Source of the DNA: Catalinimonas alkaloidigena
Lineage (GTDB): Bacteria > Bacteroidota > Bacteroidia > Cytophagales > Cyclobacteriaceae
Direction: 5' to 3'
Length of the DNA: 64,000 nucleotides
NCBI RefSeq assembly: GCF_029504655.1
Contig: NZ_JAQFIL010000001.1
Span: 4,965,001-5,029,000 of the forward strand
Every line of letters starts with the position of its first letter. Positions within the stretch are counted from its first letter, which is position 1. Position numbers and translations under genes: made by a program. Shown in pieces: positions 9,090 through 57,108 of the stretch. A model generated the notes under the pieces. That model saw only the letters and a list, made by a program, of their open reading frames with translations. It did no database searches and had not been told where the DNA came from.

Positions 9090-9133
9090 AATGTCTGCAA
9101 TCCGTATCTATAAAATTTCAAATCAAAATTCGT

Positions 9134-9179
9134 AAACAGAAAATTACAACTGGCCATATGCTAAATAACCAGTTGTAAT
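9134..9179 (-). terminator. Hairpin between susD1 and ceramidase-family gene
   Basis: A perfect 11-bp inverted repeat (9143-9153 with 9169-9179; arm ATTACAACTGG) with a 15-nt loop, followed on the minus strand by TTTCTGTTT. It sits just after the susD1 stop. It may be a partial terminator or an mRNA-stabilising 3' structure lowering downstream expression relative to susCD. Confidence 0.6.
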
Positions 9180-9204
9180 CAGAGCTTAACTTAAAGCATA
9201 GCAA

Positions 9205-10683: not shown

Positions 10684-10702
10684 GATCTTGCGTATTAAAA
10701 GA

Positions 10703-13700
10703 TTATAATGAGGGAGAGATTTTCACACCGAAAGTGATATTTCTGGGGTTTGGATACCTACCATTATCTGTACCACCCTCTTCAGGATTCAAACCGCCGA
10801 AGTTTGTAAAATAGTGTAAGTTATTGGCGGTGAGGTTAAAGCGCACATTACTCATTCTGAGTCTTTCGGATATTTCCTGAGGCAGGCTATACACCAGCGA
10901 AACTTCACGGATGCAGAGAAAATCTCCGGACTGATAAAACCTAGAGTTACCTCTCCTCAAATTTTGCTTCTGGTTCTGATCAGCCCAATAATATCTTGGT
11001 ATATCAGTTACATCTCCTTGCTCCTCCCAGGAGCGGGTTATATCCGCACCAATAGCATTCTGTCCACTAAAATTACCTAGCACTCGGGCGGCAGTTTCGT
11101 TATAAATGGTGTGCCCCAGCGTATAATCCAAAGCGATGGTCAGCCCCAGATTCTTGTAATTAAAGTTATTACGTATACCTCCGGTCCAATCGGGATATAT
11201 ATTCCCCATATAAACTCGATCTGTTTCGTCAATGATGCCATTTCCGTCTATATCTTTCCAGTTTACATCTCCGCCTCCTTTGGTTTTATCATCTCCGATC
11301 ACAAGCATATCTACCGGTCCGGCCAGGGCTTCTTCATCTGTAGCATAAATACTCTCCTGCACATAACCATACAAGTCTCCTATCTGCCCTCCTTCCTGCA
11401 ATCCTCCTTTGTACAGATAGTCACCAGCATCTTCGTCCCATACCAGTATACCACCAATCCTGTTGTTCTCCTGTCCGTTTTCCGGAAGCTCTACTATTTC
11501 GGTATTTACATAACCTGCATTCAGGGAGAGGTTCCATTGAAACTCTGATTCCAGAGGTAATACCTGTACCGCTAAAGAGACCTCCAATCCTTTATTTTCA
11601 AGGCTTCCCAGATTGGTAAGGATGCTGGAGAAACCGGTACTACTGGGGAGGGCCTGATTTGTCAACAGATTTTCAGTTATTCTACTGTATACATCCACAA
11701 TACCGGTCACTCTATCGTTAAACAAGCCAAAATCCACCCCAAAATTTAAGGTTTTAGAGCGCTCCCACTGCAGGTCCCTGTTGGCGAGACTCGAATTGTA
11801 GATGGCAGCCCCTCCATAATATCTGTCTCCCACAGAATACTGACCTTGTGCTTCGTATGGCCCTAACCCACTGATATTACCATTAACACCATAGCTTGCT
11901 CTTAATTTAAGTGTGGTTAGCAGAAAAGCATTCTGATTCCAGAAGTTCTCACGGTGAATATTCCAGCCAGCAGATATGCCGGGAAAGAACCCCCATTTGT
12001 CTTCTCCCAGATTAGAAGCTCCATCATAACGGGCACTCAATGTGAGCAGATATTTGAGGTCATAATTGTAGTTTATCCTTCCGAAGTATCCATACAGAAG
12101 TTGCTCTGTCTCTTCACCACCTACTGCCCAGGGAGTAGCCGAAGCGTTCAAGGTAGGAATAAGATCAGTTGCCGCATACCTACCTGATGCTGAAGTATAT
12201 CTGTTCAGGTAATTATAGTAAGAATATCCACCTACGGCATCTACATCGTGTAAGCCAAAATTTTTATAATATTGGAATACCGCATCCGCCTGATATTGGT
12301 GTGAAGTGGTCTGCGTGACAGAAGCCTGACGGTTTTCCACATAGGTACCCACGCCATTTTCATAAGCCATTAAAAAGTTTCTGTTATAGAAGTTATCATT
12401 TACCATGGAAATTTTTGGCTTGAATGAGAGTCCGGGTAAAAGTTCCCATTCCGCACCGGCGAAAATCATGTAGTTGTCACGCTCTCGCTTGGAGTCATAC
12501 CTGCTGATGTAGTAGGCTGGATTTCCATTGGTAAAAAGCCTGCCAGGGGCCAGTGACCCATCTTCATATTGATATTTGGAGGTTTGAGCAGTATTGATAT
12601 TATTTTTGAATACGACTCCGGTATTAGGCACCTGCGTATCCTGGATATTCGCGTATACGATCCCTCCATTAAAACTCAGCCTGTCCGTAACATTGATCAC
12701 TCCATCCAGGTTGACAGTTAGTCTCCTAAAATCTGTATTGATGGTGGTTCCTTCATTGTCCAGGTATCCTAAGCCGAGATTGAAATTCGCCTGTTCAGAA
12801 CCACCTGATATATTTAAGCTATGATCGTTGGAGTAAGCACGCTTAAAAATGGTCTCCTGAAAATCCATTCCCTTAAATATAAGCGTCTGAGAAGGATCTA
12901 AGGGGTCCTGTATAGTTTCCCACACCGCACCCCACTGATCGGCCGGCAGATCCAGCAGGTATTCATTTTCCGCAGAGAGTAACATGGTAGTAAAGCGGGT
13001 ATCATTGGTAAGGTCGTTACCTATCCCCCCCGCATTGGCCTGAGTTAAGAAGTTAAGTACACTGGGAGATCTTTCTCCACTGGCAGCGATTCCTAATCGC
13101 ATATAATACACAAAGTCACTGGGGCTGGCTAAATCATACGTTTTACCTACTTCTGACTGCGTAAGTCTGTAATTGTAGTCCACGCTGATCTGACCTGCTT
13201 CTCCGGATTTAGTTTCTACGATTACGACACCATTTGAAGCTCTGGCGCCATAGATAGCAGTAGAAGCAGCATCCTTTAGTACCTGAATTGACTCTATGTC
13301 ATTTGGGTTGATATAATCTATATCATCTCTGATCACTCCATTCACAACATATAAAGGAGTAGAACCATCTGGATTATTGATTGATGTACCCCCTCTTAAT
13401 ATTATTCTTGGACTTGCTCCGGGCTGGCCGGAAACACTCTGTACCCTCAAACCGGGAATGTTACCCTGAAGTGCAGAAGCTGTATTCGCATATGAAACAT
13501 TTTCCAGCACATTGTTATCCAGTTTACTTACAGATGAGGTCAGCGTTTCACGGGATTGCTCTCCGTAGCCGATTACAACGACTTCACCTAGCTGCTGAAT
13601 ATCCGGGATAAGGACCACGTCTACCACACTTCGCTGATTTATCATTTCTTCTTCACTCAAATATCCCACAAATGAAAAAACTAAAGTAGCATCAGGAGCA

Positions 13701-13930
13701 GCCTGAATCCGGTATTCCCCATCGATATTGGTGATGGTTCCCTGATCACTGCCTGAGACAAGAACATTGACACCTGGTAAAGTTTCTCCTTCAGCGGAGG
13801 TAACTGTACCCGTAACTATGTTATCCTGGGCGTAAGCAGAAAATGTGGTTATCAACATAAGCACTAAGAGAGACTTGTACCTCTGCATGATTGGCCACCA
13901 TTGATAATTTTGTAGAAGGTTCCTTTTCAT
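10703..13930 (-). CDS. SusC/RagA family TonB-dependent transporter 1
   Basis: A 1075-residue outer-membrane importer: leader about 1-34 (ATG at 13930; an alternative ATG at 13888 gives a cleaner signal peptide), a carboxypeptidase-regulatory-like domain (about 38-115, LPGVNVLV..GTITNIDGEY), the GEVVVIGYG segment, a plug with GNIPGLRV and DAASTAIYGARASNGV, then the barrel. It uses TonB energy to import oligomers together with SusD1. It leads unit A and is preceded by a long (about 190 nt) leader and an operator/promoter of the type shared with susC2, phyH and ridA. Confidence 0.95.
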   Translation of the reverse strand: MKRNLLQNYQWWPIMQRYKSLLVLMLITTFSAYAQDNIVTGTVTSAEGETLPGVNVLVSGSDQGTITNIDGEYRIQAAPDATLVFSFVGYLSEEEMINQRSVVDVVLIPDIQQLGEVVVIGYGEQSRETLTSSVSKLDNNVLENVSYANTASALQGNIPGLRVQSVSGQPGASPRIILRGGTSINNPDGSTPLYVVNGVIRDDIDYINPNDIESIQVLKDAASTAIYGARASNGVVIVETKSGEAGQISVDYNYRLTQSEVGKTYDLASPSDFVYYMRLGIAASGERSPSVLNFLTQANAGGIGNDLTNDTRFTTMLLSAENEYLLDLPADQWGAVWETIQDPLDPSQTLIFKGMDFQETIFKRAYSNDHSLNISGGSEQANFNLGLGYLDNEGTTINTDFRRLTVNLDGVINVTDRLSFNGGIVYANIQDTQVPNTGVVFKNNINTAQTSKYQYEDGSLAPGRLFTNGNPAYYISRYDSKRERDNYMIFAGAEWELLPGLSFKPKISMVNDNFYNRNFLMAYENGVGTYVENRQASVTQTTSHQYQADAVFQYYKNFGLHDVDAVGGYSYYNYLNRYTSASGRYAATDLIPTLNASATPWAVGGEETEQLLYGYFGRINYNYDLKYLLTLSARYDGASNLGEDKWGFFPGISAGWNIHRENFWNQNAFLLTTLKLRASYGVNGNISGLGPYEAQGQYSVGDRYYGGAAIYNSSLANRDLQWERSKTLNFGVDFGLFNDRVTGIVDVYSRITENLLTNQALPSSTGFSSILTNLGSLENKGLEVSLAVQVLPLESEFQWNLSLNAGYVNTEIVELPENGQENNRIGGILVWDEDAGDYLYKGGLQEGGQIGDLYGYVQESIYATDEEALAGPVDMLVIGDDKTKGGGDVNWKDIDGNGIIDETDRVYMGNIYPDWTGGIRNNFNYKNLGLTIALDYTLGHTIYNETAARVLGNFSGQNAIGADITRSWEEQGDVTDIPRYYWADQNQKQNLRRGNSRFYQSGDFLCIREVSLVYSLPQEISERLRMSNVRFNLTANNLHYFTNFGGLNPEEGGTDNGRYPNPRNITFGVKISPSL

Positions 13931-14125: not shown

Positions 14126-14184
14126 CAAACATAGTTCCCTCTACCAAATTATACTATTACTATTCTTTACGTTTATGATACTTT
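14126..14184 (-). promoter_or_regulatory. susC1 promoter with AraC-type operator
   Basis: On the minus strand a 31-bp element (14184 to 14154) contains GTA at its positions 4, 15 and 25, so the outer pair is 21 bp apart, as in AraC-type direct repeats. Exactly 20 bp downstream is TATGTTTG (14133-14126), a match to the Bacteroidota -7 consensus TAnnTTTG. No good -33 TTG is present, as expected for an activator-dependent promoter. By hand count the element matches the ridA copy at 26 of 31 positions and the susC2 copy at 25 of 31. Confidence 0.75.
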
Positions 14185-14433
14185 CTTTTGAAAAAAATAA
14201 CTTTATGTTAAGTTATTGTTAAATATCTTGCCGCATTAGCAGAATTATATGCTCTCTATATTACCTTGCTTGGTGGACATGGACTTACCTCAAAAGTCAG
14301 AGGCCTGCTTAATAATGCTTAAGCACTATTTATTTTAATTAAATCAAGCCTGAGCTGCTTTATACTTTTAGGGATGAATTTTTTTAAATATCACAATTAA
14401 CCCCCAGGGGGCTTCAGATCAGACCGGAGAGGT

Positions 14434-14507
14434 GAAAAAAACAAACTCCTGACTGTTCAGCTTTTGCGCATTCCAGTACAATAACCGGTACAGCAAAGGA
14501 GTTTGTT
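14434..14507 (-). terminator. Terminator of unit B
   Basis: An 11-bp perfect inverted repeat (14440-14450 with 14497-14507; arm AACAAACTCCT) followed on the minus strand by a run of seven T. The 46-nt loop is long but may fold internally. It lies 50 bp after the last gene of unit B and so would end the susC2 transcript before the susC1 control region. Confidence 0.6.
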
Positions 14508-14558
14508 ATCACAATCTACCACAAAATTAAAGATCAGGAAAAGTAGTTTAAATATTGG

Positions 14559-15752
14559 TCATGGTAACTCCCAAATGGCAGTGGCCATATGATAACGCTG
14601 ATGGCTGCTAGCCTCTGCCGCATAGTAAGCAGTAACTATTTTACCGTCAGGTCGCTGCACTGATGCCGGATAACCTAAATCCCAGGTATCGAGATCGTTC
14701 ACGATCTGAATTTCATCACTCCAGCTTTTCCCTTCATCCTCACTTATCTTTATCGCAACGCCATAGCTTCCAGCTATACGGTTACCATAAGTGATCAGTA
14801 ATTTACCGTCGTCGAGACGCATCAGGTGAGCAGGGTGTTGTTTTTCCTGTGTCAGTGGCCCTTCCAGCGTCCAGGTTTTGCCATCGTCAGTACTGCGAAA
14901 AAGATCAGTAGCAGCACCGGCTCTCCACCTTCGGGCAGCGGCAATCCACTCTCCATCTCCTAAATGAAATAATGCGGTCTCATTATGCCCACCGCTAAAG
15001 GCAGTGTCACCCTGCCCATCACTGATCACAGACATCTGCTCCCAGCTTACACCATCATCATCACTACGGAACATCACTACGATATTGATGCGCTCTTCAT
15101 TTATCGTTTGGCCTGCATAAGCCAGCATACGGAGTGAACCATCTTCCGCAGGAAGGATATCACCAAAAGGAATGAATTCTGAAGTTTCCTGCTCCCCACT
15201 GGAAGCAGGAAAAGTGTCTTTATCAACTTTCCAGGATTTACCGCCATCCGAAGAACGAGCTACCCAGGGTCGGAGCACTGAAACTAATTTATAGTCATGA
15301 TCATATTCTTCAGTGCGGGTCGCAGGCTCTAATGACCAACCGGATGGTATCACAATCAAATCACCGTTATTTGCCAGGCCAGCAGCCAGGTTCATCCGGT
15401 TTGTCATCGGGTCCGGGCTCACCGGACTACCAGTTTTTTCCCAAAATACGCCATCTTTACTCGCCCAGCATTCCACTTCACCAATGGTACGCGCATGACT
15501 GGGCTGGTTGAATATTGAAGCTATGATGGTACCATCTTTTAGGGTAGTCAGGTTGGGCCAGGCGCAGACATTGTCAATAGCAATAAAACGGCGCTCAACT
15601 TTTGCCATCTGTACACTATCCGTAGAATCCGGAGCAGTGGTCAATATAGCATGACTTTCTTCCTGAGGACTCTCTTTTTTGTCACAGCTAACAGTAAAAA
15701 TAAGTAGTAAAAGCAAATAGAATGAAAAATCGTAAGCTTTTCTATTGTTCAT
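14559..15752 (-). CDS. Asp-box (BNR) sialidase-fold lipoprotein
   Basis: A 397-residue lipoprotein (lipobox TVSC near residue 23) with four Asp-box motifs: SSDGGKSW, SDDDGVSW, STDDGKTW and SEDEGKSW, spread over residues about 180-350, the hallmark of the six-bladed sialidase/neuraminidase propeller. Asp-boxes are structural and occur in many non-sialidases, and the Arg triad cannot be assigned by eye. It is paralogous in plan to the gene immediately upstream and ends unit B. It probably acts on or binds the surface substrate imported by SusC2/SusD2. Confidence 0.8.
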   Translation of the reverse strand: MNNRKAYDFSFYLLLLLIFTVSCDKKESPQEESHAILTTAPDSTDSVQMAKVERRFIAIDNVCAWPNLTTLKDGTIIASIFNQPSHARTIGEVECWASKDGVFWEKTGSPVSPDPMTNRMNLAAGLANNGDLIVIPSGWSLEPATRTEEYDHDYKLVSVLRPWVARSSDGGKSWKVDKDTFPASSGEQETSEFIPFGDILPAEDGSLRMLAYAGQTINEERINIVVMFRSDDDGVSWEQMSVISDGQGDTAFSGGHNETALFHLGDGEWIAAARRWRAGAATDLFRSTDDGKTWTLEGPLTQEKQHPAHLMRLDDGKLLITYGNRIAGSYGVAIKISEDEGKSWSDEIQIVNDLDTWDLGYPASVQRPDGKIVTAYYAAEASSHQRYHMATAIWELP

Positions 15753-15807
15753 ATTTGAGTAGTTTTATGATCGTTAATCAAATTACTTATAATTACGCGA
15801 ATTCAAT

Positions 15808-17034
15808 TTACTCTATTTCCAATATAGTTCCGGCTATGTGTCGGGTACCATCCTCAATATTATAATAATAGGTGACAAGCACTCTCTTTTCATCCAGTTG
15901 AACTGACCAGGGATAACCGATGTCTGTTGTCCCTCCATCTTCACGTAATATAATCTCCGGAGCCGTTGCATAGTCTGTGCACTCAGGGTTCAGGATACGC
16001 GCCCGGATGCCTAGTGGCTCATGCCTGTAACCATAGACGAGCAGTACGCGCTTGTCCGGCAAGCGCATCGCCTGCAGAGGATGCCCCTTAAAACCCATAC
16101 TTTTCCAGGGCTGGAAGCTTTTGCCTCCATCTGTAGATCGGGCGATACAGGCCTGTCCATCAAAATTAGCAGTCCTCAAAAAGGCCACAAGGTCCCCTTT
16201 GGGAGTCTCATAAATAGAAGTTTCATTAAAAGCGACCTCATCATCTACTGCTACCGGACATGAGTATTTCCAGGTGAAGCCCTGATCTTCAGAGATTAAG
16301 AGATAGTTAGAAGTCCGCTTGGAATTTTCGGTCAGAGCAGCTACCACCCAAAAGATACGGCCGTCCTTACCTTCGTACAAAGCGCCTCGGTTATGAGCGG
16401 GCATGGGCATACCCAGCGCATTGTAGCGAGATTCCGGCTCAATAGTGGGTGGAAAAAATGGTCCTTCCCAGCTATGTCCCATATCTGCGGATCGTAAGCT
16501 ATAACCTCCAAATGCGATAGAGCCAGGCAAGTTTTCACTGAAGGGCTTTTTAAGATTAGGGACTCCGTCAGGGCGCACAAATGTCCAGGCATAGGACATA
16601 CAAAGTAAATTTCCATTGCGCAATTGCAAGAGGCAGGGATCCTGTGATCCACCAAACGCAAACGCATGAATGAGTTCTGGTTTCTGCCCCCATTCTTCAC
16701 CATTGCTGGAGCGTAGGCCTACCAGATAGCTATTAGGGTCTACATGATAAGTTTTTTCTTCTTCAAATATTTTCCGATCAGGGGCTCGCCGGAAGGCCAG
16801 GAAAAACTCTCCATCGGCTAATCTCACCACAGAAGGGAAGGCAGCATGGAACATAGAATCCTGATAGATAATAATATCTTTGATTTTGCGTACCCCAAGC
16901 GTACTACTGTCTCCCTCTGAAAAGAAAGAATTACCCCAACGCCCATAAACGGGGGTATTCAATCCCAGACAAACTACACCCAAGAAAAGTAAAACAGAAA
17001 AAAACTTGTTTAAGGTAATTAATTTTTGAAGCAT
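15808..17034 (-). CDS. Asp-box (BNR) sialidase-fold exported protein
   Basis: A 408-residue protein with an N-terminal hydrophobic leader (about 10-30) and Asp-boxes SADMGHSW, SEDQGFTW and STDGGKSF at about residues 180, 250 and 300. Same fold class as the gene at 14559. It begins 11 bp after the susD2 stop, so it is tightly coupled to the transporter genes, unlike the hairpin-separated enzymes of unit A. Substrate and true activity are not determined. Confidence 0.78.
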   Translation of the reverse strand: MLQKLITLNKFFSVLLFLGVVCLGLNTPVYGRWGNSFFSEGDSSTLGVRKIKDIIIYQDSMFHAAFPSVVRLADGEFFLAFRRAPDRKIFEEEKTYHVDPNSYLVGLRSSNGEEWGQKPELIHAFAFGGSQDPCLLQLRNGNLLCMSYAWTFVRPDGVPNLKKPFSENLPGSIAFGGYSLRSADMGHSWEGPFFPPTIEPESRYNALGMPMPAHNRGALYEGKDGRIFWVVAALTENSKRTSNYLLISEDQGFTWKYSCPVAVDDEVAFNETSIYETPKGDLVAFLRTANFDGQACIARSTDGGKSFQPWKSMGFKGHPLQAMRLPDKRVLLVYGYRHEPLGIRARILNPECTDYATAPEIILREDGGTTDIGYPWSVQLDEKRVLVTYYYNIEDGTRHIAGTILEIE

Positions 17035-17045
17035 TATGTCATTTT

Positions 17046-18518
17046 TTAGTTTGCCTGATAGGCCGGGTTCTGCTCTACAAGAGGTTCCAGACTTAAAACA
17101 GAAGTGGATATTGGAAATAATATTTTACCTTCAGGATCATCAAGTGCTGCCAGACCCGGCAACATTTCCACGGCTTTATCAAAACGCACAAGGTCCCACC
17201 AGCGCTTGCCTTCAAATCCAAATTCAAGTTTTCTTTCCTCCAGAATGGCCGCATCATTCTCCTCTGCAGAACCATTGACAAACACATGCGCAGCAAAAGC
17301 ATCTCCGTAAGCTCTTTGTCGTATCATATTCATTTCTGCTGAGGGGTCCTGCCCCAGCCCGTTTTTGGCTTCCGCTTTCATCAAAAGTACATCCGCGTAC
17401 CGGAATAGAATGTAGTCATCCAGGAACAGTCGGCTTCCACTGACTACTGTACCTCTCCCTTTTACATTCACGGTAGTATAGTAGCTCCCATCGTTAAGAT
17501 AAATTTCAAAGAAGGTAGCATCCTTTCTGCTATCATCAGTGCTAAAAGAGTCTTTGAATGAATCGGTAGGCACAGTAATGTTGTTTCCCCCGATAGGCAA
17601 AAGAAAATCCTGTGTTTCAGAAGTAATATCACTGGGTAACGCACTTTGAATCAGGTACATATCAGCGAAGTAATTGTCACCCGTTTCATACTGTGCAAAC
17701 TTTACGGACATCAGAATCTCTTCATTGGCTTTGTTGTCATAGTTAAAGATGTCCGAATAGTCAGTTACTAAAGCAACATCTGCTGTTTCTATTTCTTCCA
17801 GGGCAGTGAGCGCCGTATTCAGATCGGTAGCCCCACCACCCAGCTGTTTTGCTGTCCAAAGATACACCTCTCCTTTCAGTGCGTTTACTGAAGGTTTAGA
17901 CCACATGGTCCGGCCAGAGGCAAAAGTATTATCCGGAAAAAGATCCAAAGAAGTATCTATATCTGATTTGATCAGGGAGAATACATTCTCTACAGGCTCA
18001 CGTTCTTTGATCGTAATTTCTGCGCTTACTCCCTCTACAGGTTCAGTACGTATGATCAGATCACCCCAGGTTTTGGACATCACAAAATATGTATATGCCC
18101 GCATGGCATAAGCCTGTGCCAGAATCAGGTTTTTATTAGCATCATCCGTAAACTCAATTTCAGGTACGTACTTGATGATCAGGTTTGCGCTATTGATCAG
18201 GGTATAAAAACTCTGCCAGCTGGGCCCTGCATTATCAGGTGTTAACAAGTGATTATAATATTTATCCCATCCTCCTGAACCCACTGTTCCTAACTGAAGT
18301 ATGTCAGCACGTGCTTCTCCCACATAATACAGATTTCTGGAAGCGATGGTACGTAGGTTAACGTACATGCCTACCAGGGCTCCCTGAGCATCTCCCTCTG
18401 TTTTCCAGAAAGAGTTGGAGGTGATTACACTGGTTGGGTCTACTTCCAACTGATCTGAGCAGGAAGTGATGATAAATATGGACATGATAAGCATGCCGAT
18501 TCGCTGTATCTTTTTCAT
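17046..18518 (-). CDS. SusD/RagB family nutrient-binding lipoprotein 2
   Basis: A 490-residue SusD-family lipoprotein (lipobox IITSC near residue 20) with SFWKTEGDAQGALVGMY, YFVMSKTWGDL, and a C-terminal RRWWDLVRFDKA-like block. Paralogue of SusD1. It follows susC2 by 23 bp and pairs with it at the cell surface. The paralogy with SusD1 and common control suggest two related ligands or two chain forms of one substrate. Confidence 0.93.
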   Translation of the reverse strand: MKKIQRIGMLIMSIFIITSCSDQLEVDPTSVITSNSFWKTEGDAQGALVGMYVNLRTIASRNLYYVGEARADILQLGTVGSGGWDKYYNHLLTPDNAGPSWQSFYTLINSANLIIKYVPEIEFTDDANKNLILAQAYAMRAYTYFVMSKTWGDLIIRTEPVEGVSAEITIKEREPVENVFSLIKSDIDTSLDLFPDNTFASGRTMWSKPSVNALKGEVYLWTAKQLGGGATDLNTALTALEEIETADVALVTDYSDIFNYDNKANEEILMSVKFAQYETGDNYFADMYLIQSALPSDITSETQDFLLPIGGNNITVPTDSFKDSFSTDDSRKDATFFEIYLNDGSYYTTVNVKGRGTVVSGSRLFLDDYILFRYADVLLMKAEAKNGLGQDPSAEMNMIRQRAYGDAFAAHVFVNGSAEENDAAILEERKLEFGFEGKRWWDLVRFDKAVEMLPGLAALDDPEGKILFPISTSVLSLEPLVEQNPAYQAN

Positions 18519-18541
18519 GAATTCTTGCTTTAAAGGTTTTG

Positions 18542-21500
18542 TTAGAAGGTTATATTAGCACCAAAGGTAATATTTCTGGGAACAGGATAGCGTCCATAAT
18601 CCCTACCTCCTTCCTCTGGGTTCAACCCTTTGTAATTAGAAAAATAATGCAGATTATTTCCGGTCGCATTCAGGCGAATGCTATATACTTTGATTTTTTC
18701 CAAAAGCGCAGCGGGGACATTATAAGTCAATGTCAGCTCCCGAACTGCCAGGAAGTTACCTGACTCATAGTAAAACTGTCCCAGACGGGAAGGAGAAATA
18801 TCGGATGCTCCTCTTGCACTGTACCATCCATAAACTGACATATTGGTAATATCGCCTTGCTGTTTCCATGATTGGTCAACCATCTCCTGCGTCATGTTCA
18901 TGTTCAGCTTCCACATACCATTCATAAATCCACGGGCGTAATTTTGTATTGTATGACCTGTGGTAAAGTCAAAGCGTGCCAGCAAAGAGAAGTTTTTGTA
19001 GCTCAGGGTATTGGTGAAGCCACCTGTCCATTCAGGGTAAATATTGCCCATATATACCATATCTCTGGAATCTATGGTGCCATTGCCGTCTGTATCCTGC
19101 CAGATGATATTCCCTCCTCTTTTTTCCTGAACACTGGCTCTGATATCTGCTGGTGCTGACACCGCATCCTCATCGGTGGCGTATACCCCTAACTGATAGT
19201 ATTCATAGTAGTCACCAATGGTACCCCCTTCCTGCAGGCCACCCTTCCAGACGTAATCCTGGGCAGACTCATCCCACACATTGTAGCCACCCACACGATT
19301 GTTCTCTGTGCCATTATCCGGAAGTTGAAGTATCTTGTTTGTCACCTTAGCAGCATTGAAAGACACGTTCCACTGAAGTGCTGATTCAGCCGGTAGCACC
19401 TGAGCACTTAATTCAATCTCAAATCCTTTATTTTCCAGCGTCCCCAGGTTGGTAAGGATACTACTATATCCGGTAGATGGAGGCAGAGTAAAATCTGTCA
19501 GCAGGTTATCTGTTTCTCTGACATAATAATCGAGCATCAGCCCAATGCGATTGTTGAGCAGTCCAAGATCAGCACCAATATCAAATGTAGTAGAACGTTC
19601 CCACTGCAGCGCAGGATTGGGAATCACGGAATTATTGATGCCTGACTGTCCATCATAGATTGATCCCACATCATATGATCCCTGAGCGGCAAAGTCGCCA
19701 AGCGTACCGATATTACCATTAATACCATAACTAGCTCTGATCTTTAAGTTTGTCAGGTAGTCAGTAGGCATCATATTACTCCAGAATTGTTCCTGATGCA
19801 CATTCCAACCAGCAGATATGCCCGGGAAAAAGCCCCACTTGTTTTCTGCTCCCAGGTTAGAGGCACCGTCATAACGCATGCTGAGCGAGAGCAGGTATTT
19901 GTACTGATAGTTATAGTTGGCCCTTGAGAAATAGCCAAGAATAGTGCGGTCACTTATTGACCCTCCTACGGCAGTAGGTTCTGCGGAAGCATTCAAAGTA
20001 GGGATCAAATCGGTAGAAGCACCCTGTCCGGAAGCACTGAAGCCAGAAATTTTTCTACCGAAATAGGAGTAACCTGCTTTTAAATTCAGATTATGATCTC
20101 CACCAAATGAATTTACATAAGACAATACAGCATCTGCCTGAACCTGTGTACTTTTACTGAAGTAGGCACTGGCAGCACGACTATCCACATAATTACTGGG
20201 GCCATCATAAAATGAAGGCTGGAAAGCATGACCATTCTCAGACTTTTCGTAGAAGGATATCTGAGGTTCAAAAGATAATCCTGGTAAGATAAACCACTGG
20301 CTACCAAAGGCTAAAGTAATATTGTCTTCCGTATTATCATTGACCACATTGGTAAGAAAGTATTCAGGGTTCCCTTCAGACCTGCGTTGTCCGGGTGCCA
20401 GGGTACCATCTTCAAACATATATTTGGTGGTGGGGGGTAAGGTAGTAGCCCTTGCGAACACACTAGACATGCTCGGTATCTCATTATCACCAGCTCTTGA
20501 CAACATAGCGCGAGCAGAGAAACTCAAATTTTCGCCAGCCTTTACTTCACCGTTCAGACTCAGTGAAAATCGCTCATAGTCAGATGTGATGGCGATCCCT
20601 TCACTGTTCAGATATCCTACACTGGCACTGAAGGAGGCCTTATCAGAACCTCCGGATACAGACAAATGGTGATTATGCGAAATAGCCGTTCTGAACAGGA
20701 CATCCTGCCAGTCGGTATCCTTAAAAATTATTGTTTGTGAAGGATCTACCGGGTCAGGCATACTTTCCCAGCCTTCGTTAAGTTTATACTCATTCTCTGA
20801 AGTAAGATACTGCGTGGTGTAGGCAGTATTATTGGTCAGGTCATTTCCGGTTCCAAAGCCAGAGGCCAGCTGGTTTCGCCCACTGGCATCAGCATAACGG
20901 TCGTCGCCCAATACACCAAGTCTGGAGAGGGTTATATAATCTCTTGCATTGGCCAAATCATAGGTTTTGCCTACCTGTGACTGGGTGAGGTCGTAAGAAT
21001 AGTTTACCCTTACCTTCCCCGATTGCCCTGACTTAGTAGTGACTACCACCACACCATTTGACCCTCTGGCACCATAAATCGCAGTGGATGCGGCATCTTT
21101 TAACACCTGAATGGATTCTATGTCTTCCGAGGCGATATTATTCATATCCGGGCGGATCACGCCATCAATCACATACAAAGGATTGGCACCATTGGGATTA
21201 TTAATGGAGGTTCCTCCCCTCACAACTACCCTGGGTGCTGCTCCCGGTTGTCCGGAGGTACTTTGAACTCTTACCCCAGGTAGCGTTCCCTGCAATGCAG
21301 AGGTAGCATTTGGATAAACCACATTTTCTAATACCTCATTATCTAGTTTGGAGACCGAAGTAGAGATCGTTTCTCTTGACTGCTCTCCATAACCAATGAC
21401 CACCACTTCCCCAAGTTGCTGCACATCAGGTTCCAGCGTCACATTGATCATACTCTGACCATGTACCCCAACTTCCTTTGTATAGTAACCCACAAAAGAA

Positions 21501-21757
21501 AAAACCAGCGTAGCATCATCGGAAGCCTGTATTTTGTAGGCTCCGTCAATATCAGTAATGGTACCCTGGTTACTCCCTTTAACAAGTACATTTACCCCAG
21601 GAAGTGATTCTCCATCAGATGAACTCACTTTACCTGTAACAATACCATCCTGAGCTTGCAAACGGCCGGTAAAAGCGGTTACACAAATACACAAGAACAG
21701 GCTACTCTTCAGTATATAGGATGATATACTGCTAATCCGTTGATATAACTTTTTCAT
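18542..21757 (-). CDS. SusC/RagA family TonB-dependent transporter 2
   Basis: A 1071-residue importer when started at the ATG at 21757 (MKKLYQ); the frame extends to a TTG at 21787, which I judge less likely. Carboxypeptidase-regulatory-like domain (LPGVNVLVKG, GTITDIDGAY), GEVVVIGYGEQSRET, a plug with DAASTAIYGARGSNGV, then the barrel. Long blocks are nearly identical to SusC1, so the susCD pair was duplicated and diverged. It leads unit B and carries the same operator/promoter as susC1. Confidence 0.95.
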   Translation of the reverse strand: MKKLYQRISSISSYILKSSLFLCICVTAFTGRLQAQDGIVTGKVSSSDGESLPGVNVLVKGSNQGTITDIDGAYKIQASDDATLVFSFVGYYTKEVGVHGQSMINVTLEPDVQQLGEVVVIGYGEQSRETISTSVSKLDNEVLENVVYPNATSALQGTLPGVRVQSTSGQPGAAPRVVVRGGTSINNPNGANPLYVIDGVIRPDMNNIASEDIESIQVLKDAASTAIYGARGSNGVVVVTTKSGQSGKVRVNYSYDLTQSQVGKTYDLANARDYITLSRLGVLGDDRYADASGRNQLASGFGTGNDLTNNTAYTTQYLTSENEYKLNEGWESMPDPVDPSQTIIFKDTDWQDVLFRTAISHNHHLSVSGGSDKASFSASVGYLNSEGIAITSDYERFSLSLNGEVKAGENLSFSARAMLSRAGDNEIPSMSSVFARATTLPPTTKYMFEDGTLAPGQRRSEGNPEYFLTNVVNDNTEDNITLAFGSQWFILPGLSFEPQISFYEKSENGHAFQPSFYDGPSNYVDSRAASAYFSKSTQVQADAVLSYVNSFGGDHNLNLKAGYSYFGRKISGFSASGQGASTDLIPTLNASAEPTAVGGSISDRTILGYFSRANYNYQYKYLLSLSMRYDGASNLGAENKWGFFPGISAGWNVHQEQFWSNMMPTDYLTNLKIRASYGINGNIGTLGDFAAQGSYDVGSIYDGQSGINNSVIPNPALQWERSTTFDIGADLGLLNNRIGLMLDYYVRETDNLLTDFTLPPSTGYSSILTNLGTLENKGFEIELSAQVLPAESALQWNVSFNAAKVTNKILQLPDNGTENNRVGGYNVWDESAQDYVWKGGLQEGGTIGDYYEYYQLGVYATDEDAVSAPADIRASVQEKRGGNIIWQDTDGNGTIDSRDMVYMGNIYPEWTGGFTNTLSYKNFSLLARFDFTTGHTIQNYARGFMNGMWKLNMNMTQEMVDQSWKQQGDITNMSVYGWYSARGASDISPSRLGQFYYESGNFLAVRELTLTYNVPAALLEKIKVYSIRLNATGNNLHYFSNYKGLNPEEGGRDYGRYPVPRNITFGANITF

Positions 21758-22023
21758 AAGCGTATGGAAATAAATTAGTTTTCGCAATAGCGATGGTGCA
21801 ATAGTTTAATTGTTGCCACTGGTAGTGGGTGTTGGCATACTATCCTATACAATTTTTTTTCACTTTAAACACATACTGTCAAATCCCAGCTAATTTCCTC
21901 TCGGGTGTCATGATCTCACGGAAATTGTAGGTTGACAGTCTGAAGTAGATTTGAAATCAGTATACAGCTCAGCGTATAGCTTTCCTGTAATCCTGATACA
22001 ATGACAAAACATATGTTATGCAC

Positions 22024-22082
22024 CAAAAGTAGAAAAGAGCAACCTATCGTTCTATTACTATCCTTTATATTTGTGGTACTAT
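22024..22082 (-). promoter_or_regulatory. susC2 promoter with AraC-type operator
   Basis: Minus-strand 31-bp element (22082 to 22052) matching the susC1 copy at 25 of 31 positions by hand count, including an identical ATAGTAATAG end. Exactly 20 bp downstream lies TACTTTTG (22031-22024), a TAnnTTTG -7 box. The identical spacing in independently diverged flanks argues for function rather than recent duplication. Confidence 0.75.
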
Positions 22083-22219
22083 TTTTCCTGACTATAAAAA
22101 GCTAAGCAGAGTACATCCTTATCTATTAAAAGAAATAAGGTTTCCTGTGATACCACGGACAGAACGTATTGCCCGACAGATTGACAATACTAAGCTTGAC
22201 TTCGTCATCAGAATGAAAA

Positions 22220-22278
22220 ATTGTATTATCATTTACGATAATGGTATAAGATAAAAGAAAATATATTATCCAAATTTG
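22220..22278 (+). promoter_or_regulatory. phyH promoter with weaker AraC-type operator
   Basis: A plus-strand element at 22220-22250 keeps GTA at motif positions 4-6 and 25-27 and a terminal AG, and matches the ridA copy at 19 of 31 positions. Exactly 20 bp further is CAAATTTG (22271-22278), one base off the TAnnTTTG -7 consensus, 28 bp before the phyH ATG. It is the weakest of the four sites, and its centre is partly palindromic (ATTATC/GATAAT). Confidence 0.55.
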
Positions 22279-22305
22279 TATGCATAGCGACCATTACTAA
22301 AACTT

Positions 22306-23085
22306 ATGGAAAAGCTCAGTCCAGCACAGATCAAAGAGAATTTTGACAGAGACGGTTTTGTCTTTCTTCCAGGATTTTTATCCACTAAGGAGATGGCTGA
22401 GTTGAACAGTAAGCTGGAATTGTTTATTAAGGAAAAGGTTCCGGCTTTAGCTGCTCAGCATGCTTTCTATGAAGATAAAAGTGATAGTTCTACCCTGAAG
22501 CAATTGTTTGAACTACACACGTATGATACTTTCTTTAAAGCATTACTGTACCAGCGTAAATTAAAAAAACTGGCAGAAGATATCCTGGGAGAAGAAGTGA
22601 TCGCTCAGAATCTGGAGTATTTTAATAAGCCTGCCCGAATAGGCAAACCTACACCTCCACATCAGGATAACTATTATTTCATGCTAAGCCCACCCTCAGC
22701 AATCACCATGTGGCTGGCACTGGAAGATGTAGACGAAACTAATGGCTGTGTACGCTATGTCAGAGGTTCACACCTACAAGGAATGCGTCCTCATGTCAAA
22801 ACAGAGGTATTCGGATTTTCTCAGGGCATTATCAATTATGGTAGGGAGGAAGACATAAAAAATGAGCTTGCTTTTCCAGCAAGTCCGGGAGACCTGCTCA
22901 TCCACCACGCTATGACAGTACATCGCGCGGACGCTAACACACATCACTCCCGTTCACGCAAAGCCCTGGGCTTAGTATACTGGGGTAAATGCGTCGCGAA
23001 AGAAAATATGGAGATCAAAGAAGCTTATAAAAGGATTGTGGCTGATGAAATCAAGGCCAACGCCATTGAAAAGTCAAGTATATAA
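22306..23085 (+). CDS. Phytanoyl-CoA dioxygenase (PhyH) family oxygenase
   Basis: A 259-residue Fe(II)/2-oxoglutarate dioxygenase of the PhyH family. The metal triad is visible as H119 and D121 (PPHQDNY) with a distal His about H206 (AMTVHRAD), and R216/R218 is available for 2-oxoglutarate. It would hydroxylate, or oxidatively cleave, an unknown small molecule in the cytoplasm. It is monocistronic: own promoter and a strong terminator. It shares the putative operator with the surrounding units, so it likely performs a step on the same substrate. Confidence 0.85.
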   Translation: MEKLSPAQIKENFDRDGFVFLPGFLSTKEMAELNSKLELFIKEKVPALAAQHAFYEDKSDSSTLKQLFELHTYDTFFKALLYQRKLKKLAEDILGEEVIAQNLEYFNKPARIGKPTPPHQDNYYFMLSPPSAITMWLALEDVDETNGCVRYVRGSHLQGMRPHVKTEVFGFSQGIINYGREEDIKNELAFPASPGDLLIHHAMTVHRADANTHHSRSRKALGLVYWGKCVAKENMEIKEAYKRIVADEIKANAIEKSSI

Positions 23086-23109
23086 ACATACCACTTGTTT
23101 AGTTAAATC

Positions 23110-23151
23110 AATCAGCAATCAGACCTATGTTTGTATTGCTGATTTTTTTTT
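23110..23151 (+). terminator. Rho-independent terminator of phyH
   Basis: Perfect 10-bp stem (23110-23119 with 23135-23144; arm AATCAGCAAT), 15-nt loop, followed by a nine-T run ending at 23151. It starts 25 bp after the phyH stop codon and ends the transcript before the oppositely oriented araC-type gene. Confidence 0.9.
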
Positions 23152-23205
23152 GTAAAAAGGAAACACAGTTGCTATGCTGGCATCTGTAAAATAGCACTAA
23201 ATTAG

Positions 23206-24087
23206 TCAGGCGACTTCCACATTGATGTTCACAATCTTTCTGTATTCACTAGGCGTCATTTTTTTATACTTCTTAAACTGACGGTTGAAGTTGGCCAGAT
23301 TGTTAAAGCCACATTTGTAAGCCACCTCTACAATATGAAAATCACTTTCAGATAATAGCTTACAGGCATACCCTACTCTCAGGGTGTTAACATATTCTAC
23401 AAAAGTCATTCTGAAATTCTCTTTAAAGAAATTACAGAAAGTTGTTACTGCCATATTGGCTACTTGAGCTACTTCGGATAATGATATTTCTTCCTGAAAA
23501 TTCAGCATGATGTATTCAGTGACTTTTCTGAACTGATCAGAGCTTCTCAGGGATATTTTCTGTACAAATCCATGGCTCGCCAGCGCTTTATATTCAGTGG
23601 TTTGGGAAAGAATATCAAATATGGAAAGTAAGGATGCCAGACGTTGGATGCCGTTCATAGATATCATCTTCTTCATGATCCTATTGATCTCCGTACGGGC
23701 CTTTCCATGTATGGCAAGTCCTTGATTTGTACATTTCAGAAAATTAATAAAAGATTCCATTTCAGGGATTTTAAAAAAATCCGCACCTAAAAACTCTTCA
23801 TTAAAATGGATTACGATCGCATCCGCCACATCACTGGCTTCTCCATTAAAAAACTGTGGATCATTAACCCATACATGTGGCAAATACGGGGGCATAAATA
23901 CTAAATCCTCATCTTCAAAATATCCAATATGATCACCAACCATTCTTCTTCCGCTACTTTTAATTACCAGCACCAGTTCATACTCCGGATGATAATGCCA
24001 GGGACAGGGAAAGTATTCACCGACTTCTCTAAATACTGTAAAAGACTTATCAAATTCCTGGGGTAATCTTTGTTCTACGTATTTCAT
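23206..24087 (-). CDS. AraC-family transcriptional regulator with cupin sensor domain
   Basis: Taken from the ATG at 24087 (293 residues; an in-frame TTG at 24096 adds three). The N-terminal half is a cupin-like sensor (HYHPEYELVLV near residues 30-40); the C-terminal 100 residues carry two helix-turn-helix motifs (ISLSEVAQVANMAVTTFCNFF and the GFNNLANFNRQFKKY signature, ending MTPSEYRKI). It is the only one-component regulator in the locus and lies between phyH and the ridA operon. I propose it binds the 31-bp elements at the four promoters of region 1 and activates them when bound to a breakdown product. Confidence 0.93.
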   Translation of the reverse strand: MKYVEQRLPQEFDKSFTVFREVGEYFPCPWHYHPEYELVLVIKSSGRRMVGDHIGYFEDEDLVFMPPYLPHVWVNDPQFFNGEASDVADAIVIHFNEEFLGADFFKIPEMESFINFLKCTNQGLAIHGKARTEINRIMKKMISMNGIQRLASLLSIFDILSQTTEYKALASHGFVQKISLRSSDQFRKVTEYIMLNFQEEISLSEVAQVANMAVTTFCNFFKENFRMTFVEYVNTLRVGYACKLLSESDFHIVEVAYKCGFNNLANFNRQFKKYKKMTPSEYRKIVNINVEVA

Positions 24088-24163
24088 AGCAGGCAATTTT
24101 GTTTAAAACAATATTTTATATAAGTATAAACAATTGAAAGATTATTCTGTAGCTTTTTGAAAG

Positions 24164-24222
24164 AAAGTATAATAAATGTAAATGATAGTAAAAGGAATTC
24201 GGGCAGCATCCTCCTACATTTG
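24164..24222 (+). promoter_or_regulatory. ridA-operon promoter with AraC-type operator
   Basis: Plus-strand 31-bp element at 24164-24194 (26 of 31 matches to susC1, 24 of 31 to susC2) followed after exactly 20 bp by TACATTTG (24215-24222), a perfect TAnnTTTG -7 box. The predicted transcript starts about 40 nt before the ridA ATG at 24268. The site also lies about 80 bp upstream of the divergent regulator gene, so it could serve autoregulation. Confidence 0.78.
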
Positions 24223-24267: not shown

Positions 24268-24657
24268 ATGAGCAAGAAGAAAGTTATACATCCTGACAGA
24301 AGTCCTGACTTTGTTACAGGTGCTTATTCAGATGGCGTGATTATCAACGGCATACTCTACATAAGTGGACAGGCCGCTGTAGATTTCAAAAGCTCCCAAT
24401 TTGTGTTAGGCACTATACAGGAAGAAACAAAAAGAACGCTGAATAACATCAAAGCAATAGTGGAAGCGGCAGGTGCGGGCATGAATGATGTAGTAAAATG
24501 TACTGTCCACCTTTCTGATATTGCCGACTTTGACCAATTCAATGAAGTATATGCACAGTTTTTCTCGGGGATCAGGCCTGCCAGAACTACCGTGCAGTCT
24601 GTACTGGGAGAAGGGATAAAAGTAGAAATAGATTGTATTGTTCATCTACCTGCCTGA
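24268..24657 (+). CDS. RidA/YjgF family enamine/imine deaminase
   Basis: A 129-residue RidA-family protein with the family core (YISGQAAVD, GIRPARTTVQ) and the conserved Arg at about R106. RidA proteins hydrolyse reactive enamines and imines formed by PLP enzymes. As the first gene of an operon with two PLP enzymes it probably clears such intermediates, or takes part in the pathway directly. ATG at 24268; 8 bp to the next gene. Confidence 0.92.
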   Translation: MSKKKVIHPDRSPDFVTGAYSDGVIINGILYISGQAAVDFKSSQFVLGTIQEETKRTLNNIKAIVEAAGAGMNDVVKCTVHLSDIADFDQFNEVYAQFFSGIRPARTTVQSVLGEGIKVEIDCIVHLPA

Positions 24658-24665
24658 TATAATCT

Positions 24666-25655
24666 ATGATGCTAGAAAATATAGATACCAGTAAAATTCC
24701 TATTGGTGTGGTAGGCCTGGGCCTGATGGGGACAAGCATTGCTACTACCTTCATACTGGCAGGCCATCCGGTTGTAGCTTTAGCTCCCATTCCTGAAGAT
24801 ATGAATCATGCTACCACCCACATCAGGAAGCAACTTGAGCACTGTCAGTCAACGGGCTTGCTCTCTAAACCTATCGATGCATACCTCGCTAAGCTTTCAA
24901 TCACCGAAGACTACCAGCAACTCAAAGACTGTCAGATGGTGCTTGAATGTGTCATTGAAATTTTAGAGATCAAGACAGAAGTATATCATAAAATAGCAGA
25001 AGCGATTGAAGATGACGCCATTGTTGCGAGCAATACCTCAGCTATTCCGATCAGCGTGTTGCAAAAAAATATTCCGAACCCGAAACGCTTTCTCGGCATT
25101 CATTGGGGCGAACCTGCTTATTTGTCAAGGTTTCTGGAGATCGTTTGTGGTGAACAGACTGACATAAACAAGGCTAAATGGGCGAAAACGCTTGCCCCCT
25201 ACTGGAGCAAAGAACCAACGCTTTTGCGCAAAGACATCAGAGGATTTGTGACCAACAGGCTAATGTACTCCATTTACCGGGAAGCTTTGACCCTGGTAGA
25301 AGAGGGAGAGACTACGCTGGAAGATACTGACAAAGTATTCAGGTACGACGCTGGCTCCTGGATTACACTTATGGGCCTATTCAGGAGAATGGATTTCAAT
25401 GGTCTGAAAGATTATACTACTATCCTGAACAATCTTTTCCCTGGCCTGAGCAATCGTGAGGACGTGCCTCTGCTAATGCAAAAACTCATTGAAGAGAAGA
25501 GCAGGGGCGTTCAAAATACAAAAGGACTTTATCAATATAGCAAGGAGGAAGCTAAACGCTGGGAGGAGGCATTCTCTTTATTCAATGGTGACATATATCA
25601 CCTGGCTAAAAAGTATCCCGTCAACCTCGCCAAAAATATTAACGCTAAAGATTGA
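24666..25655 (+). CDS. 3-hydroxyacyl-CoA dehydrogenase-like NAD-dependent oxidoreductase (intact copy)
   Basis: 329 residues. The N-terminal Rossmann domain has an intact GLGLMG (17-22) followed by AGHPVVAL; NTSAIP (123-128) and H146 (GIHWGEP) fit the catalytic region of the 3-hydroxyacyl-CoA / carnitine / gulonate dehydrogenase superfamily, where the usual HFFNP is here HWGEP. The helical C-terminal domain contains RGFVTNRLM. The substrate is probably a free beta-hydroxy acid rather than a CoA ester, but this is inference. A paralogue with lost motifs lies two genes downstream. Confidence 0.85.
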   Translation: MMLENIDTSKIPIGVVGLGLMGTSIATTFILAGHPVVALAPIPEDMNHATTHIRKQLEHCQSTGLLSKPIDAYLAKLSITEDYQQLKDCQMVLECVIEILEIKTEVYHKIAEAIEDDAIVASNTSAIPISVLQKNIPNPKRFLGIHWGEPAYLSRFLEIVCGEQTDINKAKWAKTLAPYWSKEPTLLRKDIRGFVTNRLMYSIYREALTLVEEGETTLEDTDKVFRYDAGSWITLMGLFRRMDFNGLKDYTTILNNLFPGLSNREDVPLLMQKLIEEKSRGVQNTKGLYQYSKEEAKRWEEAFSLFNGDIYHLAKKYPVNLAKNINAKD

Positions 25656-25667
25656 AAAATCTAACCT

Positions 25668-26975
25668 ATGAAAATTGAGACTCATGCAAATTCTGAAGAA
25701 TTACTAAACAGAGCCAAGAAAGTATTGGCTGGTGGTGTTTCTTCTGAGTTTAGAAAATACAGTTACCCGCATGCGCTATTTTATTCGCATGGCAAAGGAA
25801 GTAGAATATATGATGTTGATGGAAATGAATATCTTGACTTTACACTCAGCCAGGGCCCACTTATTTTAGGCCATTCACATCCTGAGGTATTAAAAGCTGT
25901 ACACGAATATTCTGAAAAAGGACAGCTATTTGCAGGGCAGCATATACAAGAAATAGAACTTGCCGAGAAACTTAACCGTCTCATTCCCTCAGCTGAAATG
26001 ATGCGCTTCTGCCTGGATGGTTCAGAAGCAGTACATACTGCCTTCAGACTGGCCAGAGCCAAAACCGAAAAGCAAAAATTTTTACGTTTTGAGGGCCACT
26101 ATCATGGCTGGCTGGATAATGTGTGCTGGGGAATTTCCGCGCCTAGCCTTGACGCGCTCGGCGAGAGAGAATCTCCTACTGTCTCTCCCTGGTCTAATGG
26201 CCTTCCTGCTCAGTCTGGAGAAGAATCTATCGTGCTGCCCTGGAATGACCTGGAACTTGTACAAAAAACTGTGGCCAATCACCATCAGGAAATAGCCGCC
26301 ATCATTACTGAGCCTATCATGTGCAATAATGGCTGTATATTACCGGAAGAAGGATTTCTGCAAGGGCTACGAGATATTTGTGACAAATATAATATCACCT
26401 TAATTTTTGATGAGGTCATTACCGGTTTTAGGGTAGGATTGGGTGGCGCGCAGCAGTATTATGGTGTTACGCCTGACCTTTCCATCTTTGCCAAAGCTAT
26501 GGGGAGTGGATACCCAATCAGTGCTATCGTCGGAAAATCTGCCTGGATGTCGCTGATAGAAGAAGGGAAAGTCATACATGCCGGTACCATGAATTCATGC
26601 AATCCTACAGTTGCCGCTGCGCTGGCAACCATTGAAGTACTGGAAAGAGAAAAAGCGCATGAACGAATTTATCGTTTAGGCAGAAAACTTATGATGGGGC
26701 TACAACAAGCCGCAGAAGAAAGCGGACACTCCCTGCTGGTTCAGGGCCTTGGCCCTATGCTCCATACCGGTTTTTCACCGCTGGAAAAAGTAAAAGACTA
26801 CCGGGATACCTTCTCTTATGACAAAAAGCTACTTAGCAGCTTTGTAGCCGGGATGCATCAAAGAGGCATTCGCATTATTGGAAGAGGTTTATGGTATATA
26901 AGCGCTGTGCATACTGAATCAGATATTGATTTTGCAATACAAAACGCGCGCGAACTACTTAAGGAAATCAAATAA
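25668..26975 (+). CDS. Class III aminotransferase, glutamate-1-semialdehyde aminomutase-like
   Basis: A 435-residue PLP enzyme of fold type I. GSEAVHTAFRLAR (118-130) binds the cofactor phosphate, D248 (FDEVITGFR) the pyridine nitrogen, and K276 (FAKAMGSGYP) is the Schiff-base lysine. The closest recognisable relative is glutamate-1-semialdehyde 2,1-aminomutase. Context (catabolic operon, no haem genes nearby) argues for another role, such as transamination or amino migration on a degraded amino compound. 12 bp after the preceding gene. Confidence 0.9.
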   Translation: MKIETHANSEELLNRAKKVLAGGVSSEFRKYSYPHALFYSHGKGSRIYDVDGNEYLDFTLSQGPLILGHSHPEVLKAVHEYSEKGQLFAGQHIQEIELAEKLNRLIPSAEMMRFCLDGSEAVHTAFRLARAKTEKQKFLRFEGHYHGWLDNVCWGISAPSLDALGERESPTVSPWSNGLPAQSGEESIVLPWNDLELVQKTVANHHQEIAAIITEPIMCNNGCILPEEGFLQGLRDICDKYNITLIFDEVITGFRVGLGGAQQYYGVTPDLSIFAKAMGSGYPISAIVGKSAWMSLIEEGKVIHAGTMNSCNPTVAAALATIEVLEREKAHERIYRLGRKLMMGLQQAAEESGHSLLVQGLGPMLHTGFSPLEKVKDYRDTFSYDKKLLSSFVAGMHQRGIRIIGRGLWYISAVHTESDIDFAIQNARELLKEIK

Positions 26976-27013
26976 TACATTCAGCTGAGGGATCAGCTGG
27001 TAAACCTAGTTAT

Positions 27014-29067: not shown

Positions 29068-29071
29068 GCTA

Positions 29072-30436: not shown

Positions 30437-30442
30437 GTGCGC

Positions 30443-31570: not shown

Positions 31571-31609
31571 ATATTTAACATATCAATTAATCTAGCAACA
31601 CCCACACAT

Positions 31610-32377: not shown

Positions 32378-32385
32378 GGGCAGAC

Positions 32386-57103: not shown

Positions 57104-57108
57104 TAAAT

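Follow-up and report, generated by a model that had tools for sequence, protein, structure and literature searches.

The window studied here, a stretch of 64,000 nucleotides from Catalinimonas alkaloidigena (C1:4965001-5029000 of the 7.92-Mb genome; positions below are counted within the window), contains a gene for an AraC-family regulator together with two predicted SusCD operons (susC1 and susC2), phyH and a predicted ridA operon. Upstream of each of these targets lies a copy of a common element, followed after 20 base pairs (bp) by a sequence resembling the -7 box of Bacteroidota promoters, TAnnTTTG. We consider it highly probable that these elements serve as operators for the AraC-family protein whose gene lies at 23206-24087; this protein would activate the two SusCD operons, phyH, the ridA operon and a fifth operon in a class II-like manner. 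The features of the locus are listed by position; the pattern and the profiles R2 and R3 are described further below.

666..13930, minus strand: predicted susC1 operon (SusC, SusD, two unknown proteins that faintly resemble ceramidase, the unknown HP4293, a hexapeptide protein, a sulfatase, the unknown HP666), from Pfam; operon by adjacency only
14126..14133, minus strand: susC1 -7 box TATGTTTG, 20 bp from the element
14154..14190, minus strand: predicted susC1 operator, 31-bp element 14184-14154 with a 5' extension to 14190; perfect pattern match, third in the genome with R2 and R3
14559..21787, minus strand: predicted susC2 operon (SusC, SusD, two BNR-repeat proteins); operon by adjacency only
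22024..22031, minus strand: susC2 -7 box TACTTTTG, 20 bp from the element
22052..22088, minus strand: predicted susC2 operator, 31-bp element 22082-22052 with the extension; the genome's best match with R2 and R3
22214..22250, plus strand: predicted, weaker phyH operator, 31-bp element 22220-22250 with a TGAAAA extension
22271..22278, plus strand: phyH -7-like box CAAATTTG, its first base departing from TAnnTTTG
22306..23085, plus strand: phyH, phytanoyl-CoA dioxygenase family (Pfam PF05721, E-value 6.9e-36)
23206..24087, minus strand: AraC-family regulator; its ATG, at 24087, and the ridA element are 76 bp apart
24158..24194, plus strand: predicted ridA operator, 31-bp element 24164-24194 with the extension; second in the genome with R2 and R3
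24215..24222, plus strand: ridA -7 box TACATTTG, 20 bp from the element
24268..35106, plus strand: predicted ridA operon of 11 genes, from Pfam/NCBIfam; operon by adjacency only

Element, spacing and -7 box

A first-pass annotation had aligned the four elements without gaps, with GTA at positions 4-6 and 25-27, and all of this was confirmed at its coordinates. The distance of exactly 20 bp to the box also holds at all four sites, but the match to TAnnTTTG claimed for every box fails at phyH, where the box starts with CA. Among susC1, susC2 and ridA the reported identities of 24-26 of 31 positions were reproduced (susC1/susC2 25, susC1/ridA 26, susC2/ridA 24), whereas the 17-19 given for phyH measured 16-19 (17 to susC1, 16 to susC2 and 19 to ridA). 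Pairwise, the 20-bp spacers agree at only 4-7 of 20 positions, and the likeness between sites is therefore confined to the element and the box. This bears on the idea that the likeness merely reflects common descent of duplicated promoters and marks no working site. SusC1 and SusC2 are indeed paralogues, 52% identical. However, the upstream regions do not align outside the element and box, ridA and phyH are unrelated genes, and both element and spacing recur in other genera with a spacer that carries little information, so that we regard common descent alone as extremely improbable.

The length of 31 bp proved too short. TGAAAA directly precedes position 1 of the 31-mer, giving a full element of ~37 bp; among 39 thinned relatives the six extension positions carry 0.70 to 2.00 bits, and the six positions further upstream at most 0.36. 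Column similarity within the element peaks at 0.693 at a lag of 21, with the next best lag at 0.406. The element is therefore a head-to-tail (direct) repeat with a 21-bp period, and its half-site reads roughly t(G/A)AAaA(A/T)AGTA(t/a)cA. Taking the Bacteroidota -7 box to span -12 to -5 (PMC9723704), the 31-bp element would span -63 to -33. The operator would thus reach the -35/-33 region at a fixed 20-bp distance from the other promoter box, which is the geometry of class II-type activation. In the -33 region of 64 sites, TTTG occurs in none and TTG in 5 (mean in shuffled sequence, 7.5).

The arrangement is rare in the genome. The pattern ANAGTAY-N14-ANAGTANNAG-N20-TANNTTTG, with up to 3 mismatches allowed, occurs 18 times in 7.92 Mb and its reversed control 8 times, and its only 3 perfect matches are susC1, susC2 and ridA; the phyH site has 3 mismatches. 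A looser pattern, GTA-N18-GTA-N20..28-TAnnTTTG, gave 20 genome matches against 12 in the control and was rejected as too weak to define a regulon, 4 of its matches having the exact spacing and 3 of these being the window sites. When 395 genomes of the class were searched for the exact pattern with spacers of 12-28, matches numbered 24 against 22 in the reversed control. Eight exact matches fell at spacer 20, of which 3 are in the own genome, and 4 of the other 5 lie beside homologues of ridA, susC2, 3HCDH_1 or HP4293.

Recurrence in relatives and across genomes

Relatives of the regulator occur in three Bacteroidota orders, Cytophagales, Chitinophagales and Sphingobacteriales. A scan of named genomes gave 72 regulator loci, of which the 64 with at least 54% identity were used (L069-L132, 1.21 Mb) and 8 weak ones (L133-L140) were left out. 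These 64 loci were searched with a matrix built from the 31 bp of the three strong window sites, holding no information on the -7 box. At a score of at least 16 there were 71 matches against 8 for the reversed matrix, and TAnnTTTG stood at an offset of exactly 20 in 47 of the 71 and at any other offset of 0-45 in a single one. Lower thresholds behave alike: a score of 13 gave 93 against 35 reversed matches, and of the boxes 51 stood at offset 20 and 4 at other offsets; a score of 10 gave 221 against 148, and 53 and 10 boxes respectively. Because spacing played no part in finding the sites, the excess of boxes at offset 20 is the strongest single result of this work. Across relatives, the spacer itself carries little information.

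The sites lie where promoters of regulon genes would be expected. The 51 sites with an exact box at 20 (score at least 13) are spread over 36 of the 64 loci, and the next open reading frame (ORF) in the same direction is 3HCDH_1 for 13, susC2 for 12, ridA for 10, AKR for 2, and 3HCDH_2, phyH and susC1 for 1 each; 9 precede other frames and 2 precede none. The distance from site to ORF has a median of 64 bp and is within 400 bp in 44 of 49 cases, and one exact-box site was flagged inside a long ORF. In a common layout the regulator gene diverges from a ridA/3HCDH_1 operon with a site between them, and a second site precedes susC2; the ridA operator of the window occupies this same divergent place. 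When a loose box is allowed, element and box are found in 40 of the 64 loci, which include Cyclobacterium (Cytophagales), Chitinophagaceae (Chitinophagales) and Parapedobacter (Sphingobacteriales). The proportion follows regulator identity: 21/23 at 65% or more, 5/7 at 63-64%, 10/18 at 61-62%, 3/12 at 59-60% and 1/4 below. Loss of the element in relatives that keep the regulator, named in advance by the first-pass annotation as evidence against a regulon, is thus seen in part; taken together, the refuting outcomes it named did not overturn the reading when they were checked against sequence.

Two profiles were run on the whole genome: R2, a sequence-only profile of 21 sites from other species, and R3, an extended-element profile of 26 relatives' sites. 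With R2 the three strong window sites come out on top of the whole 7.92 Mb (E-values 1.7e-8, 1.9e-5 and 9.8e-5), followed by C1:3137688 (2.2e-3) and C1:4960618 (7.8e-3) and then a gap to 0.285. R3 gives the window sites 1.2e-10, 3.2e-8 and 3.6e-6, then C1:4960611 with 2.2e-5 and C1:3137688 with 2.4e-3. Many unrelated genome hits, a further outcome feared at the outset, did not appear: beyond the three window sites only two matches fall below 0.01 with R2 and R3; one of them has a homologue of a regulon gene next to it, and the other is probably due to chance. The first, C1:4960611, is found 4.3 kb to the left of the window and precedes genes for a protein of 493 amino acids that is 53% identical to HP4293 of the susC1 operon and a protein of 832 amino acids with a sodium:solute symporter domain. 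Relatives of this symporter, 51-54% identical, adjoin phyH in ten regulator loci (Cyclobacterium, Lunatimonas, Pleomorphovibrio). We count C1:4960611 as a putative fifth promoter of the regulon. The second, C1:3137688 (8.7e-4, 2.2e-3 and 2.4e-3), falls within the first part of a Peptidase_S24 gene that neighbours an impB/mucB/samB gene, and was set aside as a probable chance match.

Among 98 genomes, R3 sites at E-values up to 1e-4 occur only in G000, G019, G032 and G035, which are the four whose regulator is at least 62% identical; at this threshold no site was found in the 94 genomes without a close regulator, two of them from the same genus. The homologues in G032, G019 and G035 are 62-68% identical, and the next best among the 97 other related genomes reaches 49%. 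Relaxing the threshold to 0.01 adds ten genomes that lack a close regulator; their matches are weak, 11 in total, the best with an E-value of 7.2e-4. The M19 dipeptidase of the ridA operon, present at 75% identity or more in G000, G032, G019 and G076, was tried as an operon marker and dropped since G076 and G035 were discordant, the regulator-bearing G035 having an M19 enzyme of only 59% identity.

Several observations weigh against our reading and are set out together here. No recognisable site with a box was found in 24 of the 64 relatives' loci, 20 of them with a regulator less than 63% identical. The relatives' sites were gathered with matrices seeded by the window sites, and the top ranking of those sites by R2 and R3 is therefore partly expected, though seeding accounts for neither the offset of the box, nor the surplus relative to the reversed matrix, nor the TGAAAA extension. 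G032 and G019 contributed sites to R3, which makes the co-occurrence test half circular; G000 and G035 did not contribute. In G076 a 78% identical M19 enzyme occurs with no close regulator and no site at E-values up to 0.01, and this mismatch, with that of G035, means that operon and regulator do not always travel together. In Cyclobacterium and Lunatimonas the regulator-proximal copy of the element has no -7 box at +20. Finally, the 31-bp element of phyH, taken alone, cannot be told from chance, ranking 9th in the window with a relatives-only matrix and 22nd with the three-site matrix.

The last point raises the question of whether only three window sites are real and phyH is a chance resemblance. 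Besides its low rank and a box starting with CA, the phyH site is missing from the genome-wide profile lists and was among the four window sites that seeded the refinement collecting the relatives' sites, although only relatives entered the extended matrix. The TGAAAA extension, which was not used in collecting sites, nevertheless fits: the extended element alone comes fourth in the window, scoring 21.2 where the next match has 11.2 and the best reversed one 13.8, and the 31-bp element taken with spacer and box is also fourth (8.5; next 5.9; reversed top 2.0). In 8 Mb of sequence simulated under two models, 1 and 2 extended elements scored at least as high as phyH, and the combination of element and box was equalled by 0 and 0. 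In addition, a site at locus L088 lies 71 bp before a phyH homologue. Chance resemblance is therefore unlikely in our view, and the candidate phyH site is supported once its 5' extension is counted.

The regulator and its mode of action

The regulator is a stand-alone protein of the AraC/XylS family, 293 amino acids long, with a C-terminal AraC-type helix-turn-helix (Pfam HTH_18) and no kinase. Its model shows an N-terminal cupin-like ligand-binding and dimerisation domain of the AraC/RhaR kind, closest to AraC. No hybrid two-component architecture was found, as Pfam detects only HTH_18 and HTH_AraC in the 296-amino-acid ORF. Two variants among the relatives may be noted: G035 (C67; loci L041 and L099) carries two tandem regulator copies, 65% and 62% identical to that of the window, with a BNR-protein gene between them, and the regulator frame at 5023-5904 of L097, from a metagenome bin, contains a stop codon.

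According to the mechanism we propose, a head-to-tail dimer of the regulator would sit on two half-sites 21 bp, or two helical turns, apart and thus on one face of the DNA. Its downstream half-site would end 20 bp before the -7 box, at the place where a -33 element would be. A small ligand is probably held in the cupin-like domain, and the bound protein would recruit RNA polymerase to promoters without a -33 box, as in class II activation. This would switch on both operons for SusCD import, phyH, the ridA operon for catabolism and the fifth operon with its sodium:solute symporter. The AraC-type regulon put forward by the first-pass annotation is supported by the elements, the repeat, the spacing, the conservation and the co-occurrence with the regulator, all seen in sequence; binding, activation, the operons and an inducer are inferred.

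Alternatively, the same protein may bind the element mainly as a repressor, or may repress in one state and activate in another like E. coli AraC; copies close to the regulator gene would then be used for autoregulation or looping. Measured from the second codon of the regulator, the nearest element is 72-85 bp away in 20 of 30 loci of relatives and 79 bp away in the window. A TATACTT box in the direction of the regulator gene occurs at an offset of 35-36 in 9 of 31 loci, though these are just the window and 8 Larkinella loci. Together with the box-less copies of Cyclobacterium and Lunatimonas, these arrangements hint at control of the regulator's own gene, and the box-less copies are possible autoregulation or looping sites. 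Very high-scoring regulator-proximal copies without a +20 box are present in L069, L072-L075, L078, L079, L124 and L130, at positions ~9740-9924. For the targets themselves, however, an operator ending at the would-be -33 position, upstream of a -7 box in promoters without a -33 box, is the usual picture of activation, and repression alone would not need a fixed 20-bp spacer. We therefore hold a mainly repressing or switching role to be rather unlikely.

Known systems, a wider geometry and the pathway

Activation of the targets by the AraC-family protein would make this a regulon of a known kind, with an AraC-type operator acting from the -33 position. At araBAD, E. coli AraC binds two direct half-sites ~21 bp apart, the downstream one next to the -35 element. 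The present system resembles it in this spacing and in the modelled N-terminal domain; it differs in using a Bacteroidota -7 box without a -33 box and in having several target operons. In Bacteroides, the motifs predicted for AraC-type hybrid two-component systems (HTCS) consist of tandem sites with an average spacing of 21 bp, interpreted as a dimer bound to one face of the DNA, and HTCS_Man has a layout of 16 + 5 bp (PMC3878776); the lag-21 repeat described here agrees with both. The predicted HTCS regulons likewise combine direct repeats of ~21 bp with control of SusC/SusD operons (PMC3878776), whereas the regulator here is a stand-alone AraC protein of 293 amino acids that has a cupin-like domain and lacks a kinase, and its elements keep a fixed spacer of 20 bp to the -7 box. 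The main text of PMC3878776 contains neither "TTTG" nor "transcription start", and "box" once. As outlined there, RhaR of Bacteroides thetaiotaomicron is also a stand-alone AraC-family regulator of a catabolic operon in this phylum, but its regulon is a single operon compared with the four or five promoters predicted here. By title or abstract start, no paper on the present regulon was found in the open-access literature.

The likeness to HTCS motifs, and an ECF sigma/FecR pair at 57109-58791 in the window, could mean that another DNA-binding protein reads the element, for instance an ECF sigma factor or a regulator of the hybrid two-component type, and that the AraC-type gene is a mere neighbour. 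This is very improbable: presence of the element tracks the regulator across genomes and with its identity, several genera have the element in the divergent promoter of the regulator gene itself, and the -7 box is of the sigma-A type.

The regulon proposed for the AraC-type gene is a concrete and testable one for an uncharacterised regulator with relatives in three orders, and it would link the catabolic cluster of 11 genes with a symporter and both SusCD systems as parts of one pathway. Its AraC-type operator, at a fixed distance from the phylum's -7 box and without a -33 box, offers a handle both on the substrate of the pathway and on how activators of the AraC type cooperate with RNA polymerase in Bacteroidota.

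A repeat of 21-bp period placed exactly 20 bp from a -7 box might further be a docking rule shared by a subfamily of stand-alone Bacteroidota AraC activators, in which the protein would replace the missing -33 contact and only the half-site bases would change between regulators. If so, it would become possible to deduce regulons from sequence for many regulators that are as yet uncharacterised. The regions upstream of 30 non-orthologous AraC-type genes were examined for this: allowing up to 3 mismatches, the 14/20 geometry has 5 divergent matches there, while the 20 other spacers from 10 to 30 yield 1 in total. The own genome supplies 3 of the 5, and the remaining 2 come from 26 genes of other genomes. 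Three of 5 full-length own-genome paralogues have such a site, C1:4017523 has none, and C1:3937118 has no listed match. In a stranded scan of divergent promoters with up to 4 mismatches the grid peaks at 14/20 (7 of 30 loci), with raised values (3 to 6) at 11/20, 11/23, 14/18, 14/19, 16/20, 17/17 and 17/20, which may come from self-similarity of the AGTAATAG part and from orthologues. In the 98 genomes an AGTA pattern with up to 2 mismatches gave 62 rows at spacer 20 (reversed control 58) and 55 at the control spacer 22; with 0-1 mismatch the counts were 17 and 5. The regulator-bearing genomes hold all 5 perfect and 6 of the 12 one-mismatch rows, and elsewhere 6 rows at spacer 20 face 5 at spacer 22, which counts against the docking rule. 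Without enrichment outside the four regulator-bearing genomes a broad sequence-level rule is not shown, and the spacer-22 recount lowered our estimate slightly; the rule remains a tentative idea that may well be wrong. Looser elements with the same spacing stand in the divergent promoters of the paralogous AraC-type genes C1:1981170, C1:485188 and C1:4590579 (L054, L057, L063), followed by alcohol dehydrogenase-like, PhyH-family and SusC-like genes, respectively.

The ridA operon encodes RidA, a 3HCDH protein, a class-III aminotransferase, a second 3HCDH protein, the M19 dipeptidase, and ceramidase-like, D-Ser dehydratase-like, HpcH aldolase, AKR, GFO/IDH and SDR proteins. When the regulon enzymes were run against NCBIfam, all equivalog models stayed below cut-off and RidA passed a subfamily cut-off. 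Since the genes include two SusCD pairs, a sulfatase, BNR proteins, a symporter, dehydrogenases, an aminotransferase, a dipeptidase and an aldolase, our guess is that a glycoconjugate with an amino or amide part is taken up and broken down. One protein of the predicted regulon has a ceramidase domain and two more show a faint likeness to it (5885-7453, 7590-9089 and 29072-30436); a Pseudomonas study of sphingosine sensing reportedly involves AraC terms, which we take as a lead only. Further along the window, 54335-63949 holds genes for an ECF sigma factor, a FecR anti-sigma factor, a TonB-dependent receptor, a sulfatase, SusD and SusC (Pfam), and looks like a separate sigma/anti-sigma uptake system.

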